Shown here: in pieces, positions 3,343 to 51,448 of the stretch | Layout: each line of letters opens with the position of its first letter | Position numbering within the stretch: the first letter of the stretch is position 1 | Assembly: GCF_903893715.1 (NCBI RefSeq) | Contig: NZ_CAITNG010000038.1 | Coordinates: 1-64,000 of the forward strand | Origin: an uncultured Mucilaginibacter sp. | GTDB taxonomy: Bacteria > Bacteroidota > Bacteroidia > Sphingobacteriales > Sphingobacteriaceae | Length of the DNA: 64,000 nucleotides | Direction of reading: 5' to 3' | Made by a program: the position numbers and the translations under genes | Notes under the pieces: model-generated | Database searches by the model: none | What the model saw: only the letters and a program-made list of their open reading frames with translations | Told to the model about the DNA's origin: nothing

Positions 3343-3383
3343 TTCACCATAGCGATGGTTTTGAAACCCATCGCTATGGTGAA
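3343..3383. repeat. Palindrome, family A (AGCGATGGGTTT type)
   Basis: Perfect arms of 16 bases (TTCACCATAGCGATGG and its complement) around a short pairing loop. The core recurs at 16761-16795 and 51412-51448. Here it lies between two genes of the fucose operon, so it would be transcribed as a strong hairpin and could reduce expression of the last gene. Confidence 0.7.
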
Positions 3384-8581: not shown

Positions 8582-9448
8582 ATGAAGCCTCAGCTGCTTA
8601 AAGTAACCAACGAGCCTACGTATTCGTTCAGTGTACGGCAGGATCTGCATCCATATATCAACAACCTGTGGCATTATCACCCGGAAGTGGAGTTGATACA
8701 CATCCGCAAGGGCAGCGGCACGCAGTTTATCGGCGATAACATCAAGCGTTTTAACACGGGCGATGTGGTGTTAGTAGGCGCTCATTTGCCCCATTACTGG
8801 CGATATGACGATGGTTATTTTGAACCTGACACCGATTTAAGCGCCGATGCCGCCGTGATACATTTTGCCGAGACTTTTTGGGGCGAACATTTTTTAAACC
8901 TGCCCGAAAACAAGCCCATAAAAACCTTGTTGGAGAAAGCTAAGCGCGGTATTTATGTTTCGGGTGCCACAGCGAAAACCGTTGCCGCTTTGATAAAAAA
9001 AATGGTGGAGGCGGAAGGTTTGCAGCGCATCATCATTTTAATGGAAGTATTATCAACCATAGCCGGGTGCAATAAACTCACCTTTTTATCGTCCATCGGG
9101 TTCAGGCACGATTTTAACGATGTGGAGAACGAACGCATTAATGCCATTTACGAGTATTCGCTGGCCAATTTTAGGAGGAAGATTCAGTTGAGCGAGATAG
9201 CAGATGTGGCCCGCATAAGCGAGAACTCGTTTTGCCGTTATTTTAAATCGCGCACACGCAAAACCTACTCGCAGTTTTTAATTGAGATACGCGTTGGCGA
9301 TGCCTGCAAATTGCTGATAGAAAACCGGCTGAGCATTAAACAAATATGCTTTGAATGTGGTTTTAACAACCTGGTAGGCTTCCATAAATATTTTAAACTG
9401 ATAACCGGAAAAAGCCCGTTGAGTTATCAGCGGGAGTATGTGATGTGA
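8582..9448 (+). CDS. AraC-family transcriptional regulator
   Basis: 288 residues with an N-terminal cupin sensor domain (WHYHPEVELIHI, GDVVLVGAHLPHYW at about residues 30-80) and a C-terminal double helix-turn-helix at about 185-286 (IQLSEIADVARISENSFCRY, then IKQICFECGFNNLVGFHKYF and SPLSYQREY). It is transcribed away from the L-fucose operon and very likely controls it, with fucose or a downstream intermediate bound in the cupin pocket. That link is inference from position. The promoter interval contains an inverted repeat at 8517-8562. Confidence 0.88.
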   Translation: MKPQLLKVTNEPTYSFSVRQDLHPYINNLWHYHPEVELIHIRKGSGTQFIGDNIKRFNTGDVVLVGAHLPHYWRYDDGYFEPDTDLSADAAVIHFAETFWGEHFLNLPENKPIKTLLEKAKRGIYVSGATAKTVAALIKKMVEAEGLQRIIILMEVLSTIAGCNKLTFLSSIGFRHDFNDVENERINAIYEYSLANFRRKIQLSEIADVARISENSFCRYFKSRTRKTYSQFLIEIRVGDACKLLIENRLSIKQICFECGFNNLVGFHKYFKLITGKSPLSYQREYVM

Positions 9449-16760: not shown

Positions 16761-16795
16761 AAATAGCGATGGGTTCGAAACTCATCGCTATTTTT
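16761..16795 (+). terminator. Family A palindrome acting as terminator
   Basis: AAATAGCGATG / CATCGCTATTT arms around GGTTCGAAACT, followed by TTTT. It lies 21 bases after the YfhO stop codon. Same family as 3343-3383 and 51412-51448. Confidence 0.65.
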
Positions 16796-22051: not shown

Positions 22052-23701
22052 CTACAAATGCGGCTTTGGCGGTTTTATGGGCGTATCAAAATCGTTCATT
22101 CCTTTTACTTTTAATTTGCGACGGTAAATTTTATCGCCGCAGCTTACAAATAAAATATCGGCATTGGGGCCGCCAAAACATAGGCGGGTTGGCTGCCCTG
22201 AGTCAAACGGTAATGGCAATATGCAATTTACGCGGCCTATTTGATCCATCACCTGGATACCCAGGTTGGTGGCTACGTACACATGCCCCTCGCGATCTAC
22301 TTTAATTTCACGCGGACGCGCGTTTTCGGCTGTATCGGGCACGTGCAGCCAACCGTAGCGCTGTTTGTTGGTCAATGAGCCATCGCGGTTAACATTGTAA
22401 ATCCACACCCAATGGGTGTTCGATTCGGTAACGTATAACTGTGTCCTATCGGGAGTAAACACCATGCCGTAAGGATTATTAAGGCCCTGGTCGAGCAGGT
22501 ACTTGCCGCCTTTTTTGCCGGATAGGTAAATTTTGCGGGCATCGGGCGTGCCGTCGGCACCGGTATAATAATAGCTGTAATTGTTGGCAGATGTATCGGT
22601 AAATAACACGGAATTACATTTAACATTGGATAATTTGAATTGAGCCTTCGAAAGCTCTTTGCCGTTTTCATCCAATTGATAAACCAAATTTTTACTGACC
22701 GCCAAAACACCTTTGGGCGTTGGCGATAAACTGCTGATTTCTCCTTTGCCTTCGCTGACCAATTTCCAACCCTCGCTTGGTATCAAAATATCGTTTAAAA
22801 AAGGATTTTTAGTTGGCGTGCCTTTAACCGGTTCGGGATAACCTTTCCATAGCCAGCGCATGGCCTCGGGGAAAATGGCATTGGATTGGTTGCTGTTATG
22901 GGCACCTTCGCCCCAAACGTGGTTTACTTCGTAGCCTGCAAATTCGAGTGCGCGGGCCATCATCTGGTTGGCGTAAAACCAATCGCCGCCATAGGCATTC
23001 TGGTCGTGCGAGCCATCCTGCAAAAATACCCGGATAGGTTTTGGCTCGTATTTGCGGATGAGGGATGGATAGCGGTCGCCGCCACGCAGGCTAACATAAG
23101 TGCCTATGCCGCTAAATACGCGGGTAAAGGCATCGGGGCGTTCCCAGGCGGCAGTAAAGGCACAAATAGCCCCGCTGCTGGTGCCGCCAATGGCGCGATC
23201 GTTACCGTTTTTGCTGAGCACGATGGGGCGCCCATCGCCGGTTTTATGTTTCTCTACATCGGGCAATAATTCTTCCAATAAAAAGCGGGCATAGGCATCG
23301 CCGAGGGCATCGTATTCATAACTGCGGTTAAAGCGGTCGAGCATGGTGGTGTCGGCAGCCACAACACGGCCGGGGGTGATGAATACGCCTATGGTAACCG
23401 GCATTTCTTTGCTGTTGATAAGGTTATCAAAAACGGTTGGTGCTTTAAACTGCACGCCATCCTGGTCAACAAAAACGCAGGCAGGTTTTGCGGGGTCGTA
23501 CTGAGCCGGGATATAAACCGAGTACTCGCGATAAGTACCGGGGTATATTTTTGAACCTGTGAACTTGAATTTAAGCACTTCGCCTTTGGGTACGCCGGGG
23601 TGAACCACGGACGCTGAATCGACCGGGTAGTGCTCGGTGGGTTGTTGGGCGAGGACGATGGTCGGGCATATGAAAAGTAGAATATAAATAAGCGTTTTCA
23701 T
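22052..23701 (-). CDS. Exported esterase fused to SMP-30/gluconolactonase propeller
   Basis: 549 residues with signal peptide (cleavage near VLAQ). Residues about 40-300 form an esterase D-type alpha/beta hydrolase: nucleophile Ser175 in GTSSG, QDGSHDQN with likely acid residue, and GAHNSNQ with the catalytic His. Residues about 320-540 form an SMP-30-like beta-propeller (NNPYGMVFTPDRTQLYVTES, REIKVDREGHVYVATNLGIQV, RLCFGG). The pairing suggests combined ester and lactone hydrolysis on sugar acids or acetylated glycans in the periplasm, which is inference. Monocistronic. Confidence 0.83.
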   Translation of the reverse strand: MKTLIYILLFICPTIVLAQQPTEHYPVDSASVVHPGVPKGEVLKFKFTGSKIYPGTYREYSVYIPAQYDPAKPACVFVDQDGVQFKAPTVFDNLINSKEMPVTIGVFITPGRVVAADTTMLDRFNRSYEYDALGDAYARFLLEELLPDVEKHKTGDGRPIVLSKNGNDRAIGGTSSGAICAFTAAWERPDAFTRVFSGIGTYVSLRGGDRYPSLIRKYEPKPIRVFLQDGSHDQNAYGGDWFYANQMMARALEFAGYEVNHVWGEGAHNSNQSNAIFPEAMRWLWKGYPEPVKGTPTKNPFLNDILIPSEGWKLVSEGKGEISSLSPTPKGVLAVSKNLVYQLDENGKELSKAQFKLSNVKCNSVLFTDTSANNYSYYYTGADGTPDARKIYLSGKKGGKYLLDQGLNNPYGMVFTPDRTQLYVTESNTHWVWIYNVNRDGSLTNKQRYGWLHVPDTAENARPREIKVDREGHVYVATNLGIQVMDQIGRVNCILPLPFDSGQPTRLCFGGPNADILFVSCGDKIYRRKLKVKGMNDFDTPIKPPKPHL

Positions 23702-23865
23702 TGGGTTTAGAATTGGTTAGTAAATCTAAATAAAATATTGGATAGTGGCCCTTTAGGCCATGAGCGGCGAAATATTTTATGATGCCGAAATTTATGCGTA
23801 TATTGTAGGGTTTAGCAAAGCGTATGGAGCATAGCGTAAAGTACCGGAAAAAAGTTCTTTAAAAT

Positions 23866-24120
23866 ACCCATATTTACCCATGTGTTTCGCAAGCGCATCG
23901 GGCAAAGTGTAAGAAAGGTAAAGGCATTTGCATATTTTGTGAATACCCATAAATGCCCATATATTATGATGGAAGATGTAAGACGGAAGATGTAAAATGT
24001 ATCAGGAATTTTAAATCCGAAATTTGACATACCCATATTTACCCATATCTTGCTTTTCGGTGAAATCATCCGACATCTGTGAAATCAATAAATAATAAAA
24101 AAACACCCATATTTACCCAT
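23866..24120. repeat. Four ACCCATATTTACCCAT sites upstream of the ABC transporter
   Basis: Exact copies at 23866-23881, 24031-24046 and 24105-24120, and a variant at 23945-23960 (ACCCATAAATGCCCAT). Starts are 79, 86 and 74 bases apart. Each site is two ACCCAT hexamers 10 bases apart, one helical turn. The last copy contains the first two bases of the ABC ATPase start codon. The rest of the 417-base gap holds only the family C and D fragments. Confidence 0.75.
23968..24000. repeat. Family D repeat fragment (GATGGAAGATGTAAGA type)
   Basis: GATGGAAGATGTAAGACGGA and following bases resemble both arms of 55281-55346. Confidence 0.5.
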
Positions 24121-24892
24121 GAGTACTACACCACTGATACAAATCAGCAACCTGCGGAAATCGTATGGTTCGAAACAGGTTTTGAAAGGCTTGACGCTGG
24201 ATATTTACCCGGGGCAGGTGATTGGTTATATTGGTCCGAACGGGGCGGGTAAATCGACCACGGTAAAAATACTGACCGGACTGATACCCGATTTTGAAGG
24301 CGAAGTAATTGTGGATGGGTATAGCCTGGCGCAAAACCCGCTCGAAATAAAACGCCTGATGGGATATGTGCCCGAAAATGCGGAGATATACGAAGTGCTT
24401 ACGCCAATGGAGTATCTGGATTTTATCGGTAAGCTGTATGAATTGGAAGAAGATGTTTTAACCGAGCGCGCGCAGAAGCTATTGACCGCATTTGGCTTAG
24501 GCTCCAACCTGAACGACCGGATGGATACCTTTAGCAAGGGGATGAAACAAAAGGTATTACTCATTTCGGGCATTATACATAACCCGCGCATTATAGTGCT
24601 GGATGAGCCATTGTCGGGTCTGGATGCGAACGCGGTAATTATGGTAAAGGAATTGATGGTACGCCTTTCGGCGGAGGGGAAAACCATATTTTATTGTTCG
24701 CACATGATGGACGTGGTGGAGAAGGTATCCGACAGGATATTGCTTATCAACAAAGGTGAGATTGTGGCTGACGGTACCTTCGAGTCGCTAAAACAAAACA
24801 ACAGCGATACCCTGGAGAACATCTTCGCCAAGCTGACCGGCCGTGATGAGTCGACGAATGAAACAGACGCTATTATGAACGCTTTTGACTAA
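24119..24892 (+). CDS. ABC transporter ATP-binding protein
   Basis: 257 residues. Walker A GPNGAGKST (39-47), Q-loop region GYVPEN, signature FSKGMKQKV, Walker B IIVLDEPLSGLD and the switch His in CSHMM are all present. It powers the permease encoded 6 bases downstream, most likely an exporter of the CcmA/YhaQ type. The ATG lies inside a repeated ACCCATATTTACCCAT site, so binding of a regulator there could block transcription or translation. Substrate unknown. Confidence 0.93.
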   Translation: MSTTPLIQISNLRKSYGSKQVLKGLTLDIYPGQVIGYIGPNGAGKSTTVKILTGLIPDFEGEVIVDGYSLAQNPLEIKRLMGYVPENAEIYEVLTPMEYLDFIGKLYELEEDVLTERAQKLLTAFGLGSNLNDRMDTFSKGMKQKVLLISGIIHNPRIIVLDEPLSGLDANAVIMVKELMVRLSAEGKTIFYCSHMMDVVEKVSDRILLINKGEIVADGTFESLKQNNSDTLENIFAKLTGRDESTNETDAIMNAFD

Positions 24893-24898
24893 CCCGCC

Positions 24899-26614
24899 AT
24901 GATAGACAACTTATTTTTAACTGTGGTGGGCTTTTTTAACCCGTTTTTTGAACGGGTGGGCGTGGATACCTACCAGCTGCACCACATATTGCGGGTAAAA
25001 CTGCTGATAGATAACCGGCGCCCTACGGCCATGTTTGCCCGGCGCAAGGCCGCTATTGCAGCCACCAAAGCGCCAACCACTGTTGGTACATCATGGGGGG
25101 TGTTGATTTTCAGTATGATTATGGGTGCGCTGTATGGTATTTTCCTGTTTGCTTTCCATGATAACCCATTGATGGGGCAGACGCTGTACTTTTTCGTGTT
25201 TATGATGCTGATGTGTTTGACGCTCATTACCGATTTTACCAATGTGCTGATGGATGTGCGCGACCAATACATCATTTTGCCAAGGCCCGTGAGCGACCGC
25301 ACCGCATCCATGGCGCGCATATTGCACATTACCATTTATGTGATGCGGCTGGCGCTGTTGCAGGGCATTCCCGGCATGATAATGATTGGCTTTATCGATG
25401 GCATTGCCGCTGTACCGGTTTTCTTTTTCCAGTTGATGGAAGCTACTTTGCTGAGCATATTTACCGTGAACATTGTGTATCTGACGTTGATGCGCTCGGT
25501 TAGCGCGCAAAGAGTGAAAGATATCGTCAGCTATTTTCAAATTGCTTTTTCCATCATCATCTTTGCGGTGGCACGTGTTCCGCGGATGTTCAGTTTTTTA
25601 AACCTGGGCCACTTTTCTATCATCGAACACCCCTGGTTGTTCCTGCTGCCGCCGATTTGGATATCGTCGCTTAACGAAGTTTTGATACATGCCCACCGGG
25701 CAAATTATATTGAAGCGCTGCTGGCCTTTGCGGGCATTGCCATACCCGTTGCCAGTATTTGGGTGGTGGCCAATGTATTGGCGCCGGGCTTTAACCGTAT
25801 AATGGCCATTATGGCCGCCTCGGATGGGGTATCCTCATCGGTAAAACCAAAAGAAATTAAAAGGGCAGGTTTTATTGATAAAGTGGCCAACTTTTTAGCA
25901 CCCGACCCGGTGGAGAATGCCGGTTTCCGCATTACCTGGAAACTGGCCGCCCGCACCCGTGAGTTTAAAATGAAGGTTTACCCTTCTTTTGCCTATGTGC
26001 CGGTGTATTTTGTGTACATTATGCTAAGCGGCCGCAGCGATGGGGGACTGGCAGGTAACTACGCCGGTTTGCAGGCGGGCAAAAGCTATATCTTTTTGTT
26101 TTACATGTGCGTTTTTGTTTTATCGTTCATCTTACAAAACGTATCGCAAAGCAATAAATTCAAAGCATCGTGGGTGTATTATGCCATGCCCATCAGCGCG
26201 CCGGGCAAAATATTGGGCGGCATGTACAAAGCCATCATCGCTCTGTATTTTGTGCCATATTACCTGGTATTAAGCATTGTTGCATTGGTGGTATGGGGCC
26301 CTGCAGTTATCAACGATATTTTACTGGCATTTTTTGTTAACCAGGTATTGGGTATTATGCTTGCCCTGTTTATGGTAAAAGGCTTTCCGTTTTCAAAACC
26401 CTTGCTCAACAGGCGGGGCAGCGGCCGGGGTTTTATGTCGTTAGCGGTGCTGTTTATTGCAGGTATAGTAGGCTTTGGCCATTATGTACTGGCGCGCTGG
26501 GAAACCGTGATTTGGATATGCGTGGTATTGGCAGCGTTGTTGAACTGGGTGATGTACAATTACTACCGCAAACAGAGTTGGGACAATATTGAGTTGGCGG
26601 ATTTGGAGGGGTAG
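24899..26614 (+). CDS. ABC transporter permease
   Basis: 571 residues with about ten to twelve hydrophobic helices in two clusters split by a cytoplasmic loop (about residues 300-355). The C-terminus reads VMYNYYRKQSWDNIELADLE then Gly and stop. It is the membrane partner of the preceding ATPase. Oddity: the last 61 bases of the gene (26548-26608) recur at 27371-27431 beyond the toxin-antitoxin module, with four differences that are all silent, so the present 3' end may have arrived with the module. Confidence 0.85.
   Translation: MIDNLFLTVVGFFNPFFERVGVDTYQLHHILRVKLLIDNRRPTAMFARRKAAIAATKAPTTVGTSWGVLIFSMIMGALYGIFLFAFHDNPLMGQTLYFFVFMMLMCLTLITDFTNVLMDVRDQYIILPRPVSDRTASMARILHITIYVMRLALLQGIPGMIMIGFIDGIAAVPVFFFQLMEATLLSIFTVNIVYLTLMRSVSAQRVKDIVSYFQIAFSIIIFAVARVPRMFSFLNLGHFSIIEHPWLFLLPPIWISSLNEVLIHAHRANYIEALLAFAGIAIPVASIWVVANVLAPGFNRIMAIMAASDGVSSSVKPKEIKRAGFIDKVANFLAPDPVENAGFRITWKLAARTREFKMKVYPSFAYVPVYFVYIMLSGRSDGGLAGNYAGLQAGKSYIFLFYMCVFVLSFILQNVSQSNKFKASWVYYAMPISAPGKILGGMYKAIIALYFVPYYLVLSIVALVVWGPAVINDILLAFFVNQVLGIMLALFMVKGFPFSKPLLNRRGSGRGFMSLAVLFIAGIVGFGHYVLARWETVIWICVVLAALLNWVMYNYYRKQSWDNIELADLEG
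26548..26608 (+). repeat. Direct repeat, copy 1 (3' end of permease gene)
   Basis: 61 bases coding the permease C-terminus. Matches 27371-27431 without gaps at 57 of 61 positions. The four changes (GTG/GTA, AAA/AAG, GAG/GAA, GCG/GCT) leave the protein unchanged. Copies start 823 bases apart and bracket the toxin-antitoxin module. Confidence 0.9.
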
Positions 26615-26701: not shown

Positions 26702-27043
26702 GTGAAACTCATAAGACAGGTAGTTGCTTATAAGAGGTATTTTTTAGATTTCTACACCCAACAGCCACAAAATGTTCAGGCAAAAATAGAATGGACATTG
26801 AACCTGATCCGTGTAACCTATCAAATACCCGAAAAGTATTTTAAGCACATGGAGGGAACTAAAGGTTTGTATGAGATAAGAGTAGAAGTAGGCAGTAACA
26901 TTTACAGGATATTTTCTTTTTTTGATAAAGGCAACCTTGTTGTATTGGGAAACGCATTTCAAAAGAAAACACAAAAAACACCGAAACAGGAAATAGAAAA
27001 AGCCCTGAAGATAATGGAGGAATATTATGATGGAACCAAATAA
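26702..27043 (+). CDS. HigB/RelE-like toxin (Gp49 family)
   Basis: 113 residues starting at GTG. The pattern of a short helix pair followed by [30 protein letters not shown] and [22 protein letters not shown] matches the phage-derived Gp49/HigB group, mRNA interferases that cleave at the ribosome. The gene comes first, toxin before antitoxin, as is typical for HigBA, and overlaps the antitoxin gene by 17 bases. No ATG lies near, so GTG is accepted. Base composition is more AT-rich than the flanking transporter genes. Confidence 0.85.
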
Positions 27044-27338
27044 AAGCAAAGATATTACCAGTTTAGACGAAATATTGGATGGGAAATATGGCAAACGGGG
27101 CGTTGCCAAAAGAGAAAAGTGGGAACAAGAGTTTGAAACCTTTCATTTAGGCGTGCTTTTGGAAGAAGCCAGGCTAAAATTAGGGATGACGCAGGAAGAA
27201 CTGGCTGAAAAGTGCGGAACAAATAAATCTTATATTTCGCGGATTGAGAACAATTCGTCAGACATCCGTTTATCTACCCTGATGAAGATTATACAACAAG
27301 GGTTGGGCGGGCATTTGAAATTAACTTTGGAGCTTTAG
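27027..27338 (+). CDS. HigA-like XRE-family antitoxin
   Basis: 103 residues with a C-terminal helix-turn-helix: [20 protein letters not shown] then [19 protein letters not shown] (about residues 50-93). The N-terminal part is charged and likely wraps the toxin. It overlaps the toxin gene by 17 bases and is expected to neutralise the toxin and repress the shared promoter. The sequence after the stop is a duplicate of the upstream permease gene end. Confidence 0.87.
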
Positions 27339-27370: not shown

Positions 27371-27431
27371 GGTAATGTACAATTACTACCGCAAGCAGAG
27401 TTGGGACAATATTGAATTGGCTGATTTGGAG
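27371..27431 (+). repeat. Direct repeat, copy 2 (permease C-terminus remnant)
   Basis: Encodes VMYNYYRKQSWDNIELADLE followed by TGA, the same residues as the permease end, but is detached from the gene. It lies 9 bases before the lipoprotein start codon and may be the original 3' end of the permease gene. Confidence 0.9.
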
Positions 27432-50627: not shown

Positions 50628-51419
50628 TTGGATAAAAGCATTTCGGTATTAGGCTGTGGTTGGTTAGGTTTTCCGTTGGCCATTAAACTGCTGGAAGATG
50701 GCTGGCAGGTGAAAGGGTCGACCACAACAGAAACCAAGTTACCGGTGCTTGCCGAACAAGGCATTGAGCCGTATTTGGTGCATCTGGCTAACATAACAGC
50801 TGCGGATAAAAACTTTTTTGAAAGCGAGGTATTGCTCATCAACATACCTCCGGGTTTGCGCAAGCAGAGGGGCACAGATTATTTGGCCCAAATGAAACAA
50901 TTGCGGCAAGTCGTTGCTCTCTCGCCGGTTAAATATGTGGTATTTATCAGCTCGACCTCGGTTTATCCGGAATTGAACAAAGTAATCAGCGATGTGAACG
51001 AAGCTGACCCCGATAATGTGCTGTACCAATCGGAACAGCTTTTTGCAGAATGCCCCCAATTTAAAACGACCATTATCCGCTTTGCGGGATTGATAGGTCC
51101 CGGCAGGCCACCGGCACGTTTTTTCGTGGGCAGGCAAAACATCCCTAACGGGCAAGCACCGGTAAACCTGATTCACCTGGATGATTGCATTGGCATAGTT
51201 GAAGCTGTTTTAAAGCACGAGAAATTTGACGGAGTTTACCACGCAGCCGCGCCAAACCACCCGGCCAAACAGGATTTTTATACCGAAGCGGCGAAACATG
51301 CCGGTTTACCTTTACCGGGATTTGTAGATGAGTTGCGGGAGTGGAAGGTGATAGATAGCGGGAAAATAATAGAAGGGTTGGGATATAATATCAGCCCTGT
51401 TAGCCCTTTGCAAAAATAG
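50628..51419 (+). CDS. YeeZ-like NAD(P)-binding SDR/epimerase family protein
   Basis: 263 residues starting at TTG. N-terminal Rossmann start SVLGCGWLGFPLAIKLLEDGW is of the GxGxxG type seen in YeeZ-like extended SDRs; VVFISSTSVYPE supplies the SDR serine/tyrosine region and IIRFAGLIGPGR the substrate loop. Catalytic lysine is not obvious. A TACCTTTG element lies 19 bases before the start. Substrate unknown. The stop codon lies inside a palindrome shared with gltX. Confidence 0.8.
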   Translation: MDKSISVLGCGWLGFPLAIKLLEDGWQVKGSTTTETKLPVLAEQGIEPYLVHLANITAADKNFFESEVLLINIPPGLRKQRGTDYLAQMKQLRQVVALSPVKYVVFISSTSVYPELNKVISDVNEADPDNVLYQSEQLFAECPQFKTTIIRFAGLIGPGRPPARFFVGRQNIPNGQAPVNLIHLDDCIGIVEAVLKHEKFDGVYHAAAPNHPAKQDFYTEAAKHAGLPLPGFVDELREWKVIDSGKIIEGLGYNISPVSPLQK

Positions 51420-51448
51420 CGATGGGTTTCAAACCCATCGCTATTTTT
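51412..51448. terminator. Perfect family A palindrome, bidirectional terminator
   Basis: AAAAATAGCGATGGGTTT and its exact reverse complement (18-base arms) around a single C. A and T tracts on both ends allow termination of both the epimerase-like gene (stop 51417-51419) and gltX (stop 51447-51449). Same family as 3343-3383 and 16761-16795. Confidence 0.85.

Follow-up and report, generated by a model that had tools for sequence, protein, structure and literature searches.

The four 16-bp sites that precede an ABC transporter ATPase gene in an uncultured Mucilaginibacter sp. are, in our judgment and with moderate confidence, best explained as belonging to a family of promoter-led, composite non-coding repeat arrays that is specific to the lineage. 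That this genus carries a dispersed family of composite non-coding arrays peculiar to its lineage is itself well supported. An array is ordered as a promoter-like box, a spacer of about 55 bp and one to four 16-bp double sites of the form Y-ACCCAT-AWW-T-ACCCAT-R, all on one strand and usually before a gene. Because dozens of like non-coding arrays are found across the genome and in a few close relatives, these four do not constitute a transporter switch. Hereafter, "the window" denotes the whole stretch of 64,000 nucleotides analysed, which lies within contig C38 of the source genome (G000; 4.02 Mb, 161 contigs).

Four double sites upstream of the ATPase gene

A sequence-only reading of this region had reported three exact copies and one variant of a 16-mer, with starts 79, 86 and 74 bp apart, and a search of the window recovered them all: ACCCATATTTACCCAT occurs exactly on the + strand at 23866-23881, 24031-24046 and 24105-24120, and a copy with three mismatches, ACCCATAAATGCCCAT, lies on the + strand at 23945-23960. 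With up to three mismatches allowed, the window contains 5 matches to the 16-mer against a mean of 0.94 expected, and none of 100 shuffles contained 5. The description of each site as two ACCCAT hexamers one helical turn apart was correct, the halves being 10 bp apart. The helical phasing that had been proposed holds between the two hexamers within a site but fails between sites, which are 7.52, 8.19 and 7.05 turns apart (79, 86 and 74 bp, each divided by 10.5).

The sites occupy the 417 bp that separate a divergent esterase-like gene from the ATPase gene. As had been stated, no gene is predicted in this interval (23701 to 24119), and no inverted repeat was found when one was looked for at 23700-24200. 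Site 4 does lie over the ATPase start, as claimed; since the closest relatives begin at the same ATGAGTAC, the start codon under this site is the true start. The features of the region are as follows.

22052-23701, - strand: divergent neighbour, an esterase/SMP-30-like secreted protein of 549 aa (Pfam PF00756, PF08450)
23799-23810, + strand: promoter-like -7 element TATATTGTAGGG (putative function), matching TATATTGTATGG at 11 of 12 positions, 67 bp 5' of site 1
23811-23865, + strand: first spacer, with a CAAAGCG-type micro-repeat and the end GTTCTTTAAAAT; it resembles cassettes of other arrays, which have a like end
23811-23865, + strand: predicted transcript start, within the first spacer, from the 4-5 nt rule of Flavobacterium johnsoniae
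23866-23881, + strand: double site 1, ACCCATATTTACCCAT, exact
23882-23944, + strand: spacer cassette 1, 77% identical over its full length to cassette L081_3 of another array
23945-23960, + strand: double site 2, variant ACCCATAAATGCCCAT, three mismatches
23961-24030, + strand: spacer cassette 2, with GGAAGATG and AAATCCGAAATTTG micro-repeats; 23964-24030 is matched, always on the same strand, by 13 cassettes from other arrays
24031-24046, + strand: double site 3, ACCCATATTTACCCAT, exact
24047-24104, + strand: spacer cassette 3, with a GGTGAAATCATC / CTGTGAAATCA micro-repeat
24105-24120, + strand: double site 4, ACCCATATTTACCCAT, exact; its final AT and the next G form the ATPase start codon
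24119-24892, + strand: ABC transporter ATPase gene, 257 aa (Pfam ABC_tran, E 7e-25), with the start kept in the closest relatives

Elsewhere in the window, the last ~61 bp of a permease gene (26548-26608) are duplicated at 27371-27431 (57 of 61 positions identical). A small module lies between the two copies, at 26702-27338, with genes for a Gp49-like (HigB-type) protein and an HTH protein; the arrangement looks like the insertion of a toxin-antitoxin module accompanied by a duplication that restores the end of the permease gene.

Genome-wide copies and the operator reading

Repression of the transporter had been suggested, with a genome search for the 16-base word and the presence of sites before orthologous transporters as checks. 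The word has 54 exact copies in the source genome, and ACCCAT-N4-ACCCAT has 161 exact copies; the reversed-pattern control gave 83, which is not a clean background because its pattern, TACCCA-N4-TACCCA, is contained in the real sites. The 61 array loci that were read adjoin unrelated housekeeping genes and not one related gene set. Downstream of the arrays, 40 co-directional genes whose sequences were read by eye proved functionally unrelated and mostly housekeeping. Among them are genes that we take, from sequence rather than from a database, to be thrS, fabF, dnaK, recA, dxr, lepA and prfA. Upstream of the orthologous ATPase gene, a paired site was sought within 450 bp in 29 relatives and was absent from all 29.

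The double half-sites 10 bp apart and the placement of four sites between a promoter and a start codon do resemble the operator of a dedicated repressor of the transporter, or of a coherent regulon; against this stand the genome-wide copy number, the unrelated downstream genes and the lack of paired sites before the orthologues. We consider an operator very improbable, and this reading is already largely refuted. The alternative that had been offered, a dispersed repeat, is closer to the data, except that the copies are ordered rather than randomly scattered: they share one strand within each array, have a promoter ahead and recur at orthologous positions. The case carries a caution, namely that operator-like sites before one gene, seen in isolation, can be a genome-wide repeat.

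Among 151 genomes of the family, more than three copies of the double hexamer were found only in the source genome and in G121 (79 copies). The form Y-ACCCAT-N3-T-ACCCAT-R is present in 10 of 149 genomes of the genus, with 149 copies in the source genome, 76 in G121 (Mucilaginibacter sp. PPCGB 2223), 66 in G230 (a Mucilaginibacter MAG, JANXTT), 14 in G193 (M. rivuli HMF5004), 6 in G175 and 1 in each of five more; HMF5004 and PPCGB 2223 are strain designations, unlike the MAG JANXTT. The double hexamer is abundant in only 4 of the 149 genomes, and a fifth has 6 copies. When named genomes were scanned for the ACCCATWWWTACCCATGTG pattern, 3 of 57 stretches were outside Mucilaginibacter, each with a single copy. 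If our reading is right, the copy series 149, 76, 66, 14, 6 and 0 is a natural test set for the origin, spread and regulatory effect of the repeat family.

Organization and genomic placement of the arrays

Array counts rest on 61 loci of the source genome, which hold 129 of the 161 exact double-hexamer sites; a match at L102 lies in a gene and is probably due to chance. With one substitution allowed, the 61 loci comprise 10 single sites, 21 pairs, 22 triples and 8 quadruples, and none of them has sites on both strands. Site-to-site spacing at these loci falls for the most part between 62 and 140 bp, the median being close to 94, and shows a weak genome-wide periodicity of 10.5-11 bp (R 0.25-0.32, p about 0.003-0.007). 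Extending the consensus gives R-Y-ACCCAT-A-WW-T-ACCCAT-R, in which the hexamer positions were fixed by the search pattern and the flanking positions were not selected.

In two relatives, none of 84 sites fell within predicted genes. Where the flanking genes are co-oriented, the sites run along rather than against them in 18 vs 5 arrays of the source genome, 14 vs 4 of PPCGB 2223 and 4 vs 4 of the MAG (pooled over tandem gene pairs, 36 vs 13, p 0.0014), with genes called by a simple script that scores hexamers instead of by a standard gene finder. Some arrays are directed at the 3' terminus of the gene that follows. A comparison of 13 array-bearing loci with Rfam families gave no match to an array, the one hit being a tRNA elsewhere in L155. 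In PPCGB 2223, six loci (L031, L032, L037, L039, L045 and L046) carry pairs of sites separated by 106-107 bp whose left end, ATGGGTATACCCAT, is palindromic, possibly an intact form of the element.

A promoter-like box ahead of many arrays

Upstream of the first site, TATATTGTATGG or a close variant, with no fewer than 9 of 12 matching positions, was found on the sense strand of 26 of the 58 arrays and on the antisense strand of none; the motif was picked after seeing the data and its strict form occurs in less than half of the arrays, and a few of the 26 look like chance. The distance from box to first site in the source genome is mostly 55-77 bp, with a mode of 66-67, and both TATATTG-type boxes and perfect TAnnTTTG boxes occur at the same distance from arrays. 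A looser -7 pattern, 35-105 bp upstream, was counted on the sense vs the antisense strand in five genomes (62 vs 9 pooled): 37 vs 4 in the source genome, 19 vs 1 in PPCGB 2223, 3 vs 1 in M. rivuli, 2 vs 3 in the MAG and 1 vs 0 in G175. From these counts, two species show the sense-strand effect, a third shows it weakly and the MAG does not show it. The box is similar to the Bacteroidetes -7 element of F. johnsoniae, TAHHTTTG, which has been defined with a transcription start 4-5 nt downstream and leaders averaging 33 nt (PMC6847099). For the window array, the TATATTGTAGGG box at 23799 implies a predicted ATPase leader of ~310 nt.

The distances from promoter to first site in the source genome appeared helically phased (R 0.73 for 32 distances; 0.57 for 37 with the looser motif). 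This was not replicated in PPCGB 2223 (R 0.35 for 19 distances, with an unrelated mean phase), and such phasing is not claimed. Some arrays of PPCGB 2223 and G175 (L121, L124, L126, L163, L033, L228 and others) are preceded by CTTACAATTTCCCCCC with its C run, not by a TATATTG box; the run is a slippage-prone tract near a possible promoter.

That the motif is simply the native promoter of each gene was considered and is wrong for dxr, where a separate native TACTTTTG-type box, common to five relatives, is kept between the array and the start codon. Because dxr retains this promoter, the array there brings its own. For other genes the native-promoter reading is right or undecidable, as at L093 and its M. 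rivuli counterpart L214, where both species retain the promoter block and a second box was not seen.

Conservation of array positions and change of site letters

Eleven M. rivuli loci were read, and one (L217, a match inside the dxr coding sequence) was dropped. Of the remaining 10 intergenic loci, 8 are next to a gene that has a site locus on that side in the source genome too; the arrays are therefore old. L055/L221, a fabF-like pair and the best aligned, can be matched through promoter, first spacer and site, the start of the aligned block lying 76 and 75 bp from the site, and the site reads ACCCATAAATACCCAT in the source genome and ACCCAAGAATACCCAA in M. rivuli, so that ACCCAT has become ACCCAA in both halves. 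At L093/L214 the spacer cannot be aligned, the promoter block lies 83 and 84 bp from the first site, and the first site in M. rivuli reads ACCTGTTTTTACCTGC. Upstream of dnaK, the source genome and PPCGB 2223 share a 28-bp block containing the site, 129 and 128 bp from the coding alignment. The promoter-to-site distances of L050/L222 (67 and 57) differ by ~10 bp. A search with a variant pattern gives ACCCAAGAATACCCAAG as the commonest M. rivuli form among the matches listed, and further forms in the other genomes. These orthologous pairs indicate that array positions are kept while spacers and site letters change.

Such behaviour is what would be expected of genome-wide binding-site arrays for a host regulator or a chromosome-organising protein, kept for their function and not spread by mobility. 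Orthologous loci persist while spacers are replaced, the promoter-to-site distance is near-fixed in two species, both half-sites change in concert, and the arrays are oriented along the flanking genes. The same reading has to accommodate a copy number that falls from 149 to 0 inside one genus, spacers held in common by different loci, and the finding that only 2 of ~45 PPCGB 2223 loci share a neighbour with the source genome at high identity; we therefore regard it as a tentative possibility.

The persistence of sites where spacers fail to align also speaks against the ACCCAT decamers being neutral debris, that is, one of several functionless, slippage-prone intergenic repeat families. Tandem expansions by 10 bp to 3-5 hexamers, seen in PPCGB 2223 and M. 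rivuli, and the other micro-repeats dispersed in the same genomes would fit debris; the single strand kept throughout each of the 61 arrays and the promoter found only on the sense strand would not, and we think debris unlikely. One such expansion in PPCGB 2223, at L040, reaches five hexamers.

Spacers shared between arrays

The spacers, ~31-124 bp long for most, are drawn from micro-repeat families that recur in different arrays. When 78 spacers were compared, 21 full-length pairs from different arrays were at least 72% identical, against 0 with shuffled spacers, and segment-to-segment matches numbered 944 on the same strand vs 131 on the opposite strand. In 20 of the 21 homologous pairs the base directly before ACCCAT agrees, and the 5' border is fuzzy. 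Micro-repeats of the arrays are found on their own as well, away from ACCCAT sites, both in the window (at 9446, 52981, 53057 and 55281) and in relatives, so the spacer families are not limited to arrays. The central dinucleotide is identical in 39 of 89 neighbouring sites vs 36.3 expected (p 0.31); an origin of neighbouring sites by tandem or target-site duplication was rejected, as the central dinucleotides of neighbours are independent.

Several arrays contain between their sites a composite spacer built of a TCATTGG repeat and a TTTGCACAT repeat (L060_3, L080_2, L088_1, L092_1, L092_2 and others), and one copy of it has a CCCGATAGCTATCGGGA palindrome inserted mid-spacer. A spacer between sites in L079 contains what looks like a fragment of a small protein gene, its translation ending in ...YKGAREMLGIGNK.

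Spacer sharing raises the prospect of site-specific recombination, in which the double hexamer would be the crossover or insertion site and the spacers small non-coding cassettes exchanged by an integron-like logic. The recurrence of the same spacer between sites of different arrays, the agreement of the last base before ACCCAT beside a fuzzy 5' boundary, and adjacent sites that are not mutual copies are all compatible with exchange. Set against them, no recombinase was linked to the arrays in a search for the Y1 transposase family, the sites are non-palindromic, many spacers are present outside arrays too, and no cassette was caught moving between strains, which makes this account quite unlikely.

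A proposed model for the arrays

Under the preferred reading, that of a lineage-specific family of promoter-led composite arrays, the doubled hexamer probably serves as the recognition site of a protein, as suggested by its equal halves one turn apart, the concerted change of the halves and its persistence despite spacer turnover. Each double hexamer would be recognised by one sequence-specific protein, with two identical halves bound one helical turn apart, and selection or homogenisation would maintain the sites while spacers are replaced. The promoter of the array would start a transcript running across the sites, and the bound protein would modulate or terminate it; judged from sequence, an action of the bound protein on this transcript is the most likely mechanism. 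In the window, the array would form the predicted leader of the ATPase gene. Since spacers are shared and copy numbers differ, the units may spread between loci by a mobile or recombinational process. Counting against the model are the strict promoter motif in less than half of the arrays, the promoter-to-site phasing that failed to recur in PPCGB 2223, the micro-repeats present outside arrays and the arrays that face the 3' terminus of a neighbouring gene.

A bolder version is speculative: an undescribed, fast-diversifying Mucilaginibacter DNA-recognition system, in which a protein would bind co-changing doubled hexamers at a near-fixed distance 3' of dedicated promoters and non-coding cassettes would swap via the sites. 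The repeat-array family is apparently undescribed, and in the open-access literature, with publications on Bacteroidetes repeats judged by title, we found none on a Mucilaginibacter ACCCAT element or on the 16-mer. If the model is right, the leaders of many core genes would consist of interchangeable non-coding units arranged about a protein-binding site, and in a few species the site would appear to co-evolve with its protein.

Comparison with known repeat systems

The nearest described system that we found is BrickBuilt of Porphyromonas gingivalis, a MITE that is intergenic and restricted to its species, has a leader, tandem repeats and promoter activity, is present in 19 copies in ATCC 33277 and is composed of contiguous 23-nt repeats with inverted-repeat ends (PMC4596501). 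The arrays are likewise lineage-restricted intergenic composites of the Bacteroidota with a leader and short repeats. BrickBuilt has no spacers between its 23-nt repeats, whereas the ACCCAT arrays have long variable spacers between successive 16-bp double hexamers, and on this ground they are not a BrickBuilt member. Among the ACCCAT arrays, inverted ends were seen only in PPCGB 2223, whose copies show an imperfect CACATGGGTAT end with its complement, not evident in the source genome. By eye, and with no empty site of close identity for comparison, no MITE target-site duplication was recognised.

REP/BIME elements with their RAYT (Y1) transposases are also dispersed short intergenic repeats, and REP hairpins stand beside a Y1 transposase gene in the same genomes. 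The ACCCAT sites differ in being direct, not palindromic, repeats, and at 10 loci of Y1 transposases (PF01797) in four genomes none was flanked by paired sites, one having a pair ~1.4 kb away; a Y1/RAYT transposase was thus rejected as the mobiliser. The window carries three REP-like TAGCGATGGGTTT-AAACCCATCGCTA hairpins (3350-3376, 16764-16790 and 51417-51443); this hairpin also stands on the flanks of the Y1 (IS200-like/RAYT) transposase gene at L195, elsewhere in the source genome (G000:C48). This is a different repeat, which contains ACCCAT by chance.

BOX elements of Streptococcus pneumoniae are modular dispersed intergenic repeats with different subunits, located near promoters and in 5' leaders; compared by description, the ACCCAT modules are distinguished by borders that form a strict 16-bp direct repeat and by many spacer families. 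Integron cassette arrays consist of variable units in the same orientation with a recurrent short site between them, the palindromic attC. The ACCCAT arrays likewise have variable units of the same orientation that are shared between arrays, but as a rule these carry no ORFs, the sites are direct repeats rather than a palindromic attC, and there are dozens of arrays. CRISPR loci begin with a leader/promoter followed by repeats and spacers, as do the arrays described here; CRISPR spacers are unique and near-constant in length, whereas those of the ACCCAT arrays vary in length and recur in different arrays.
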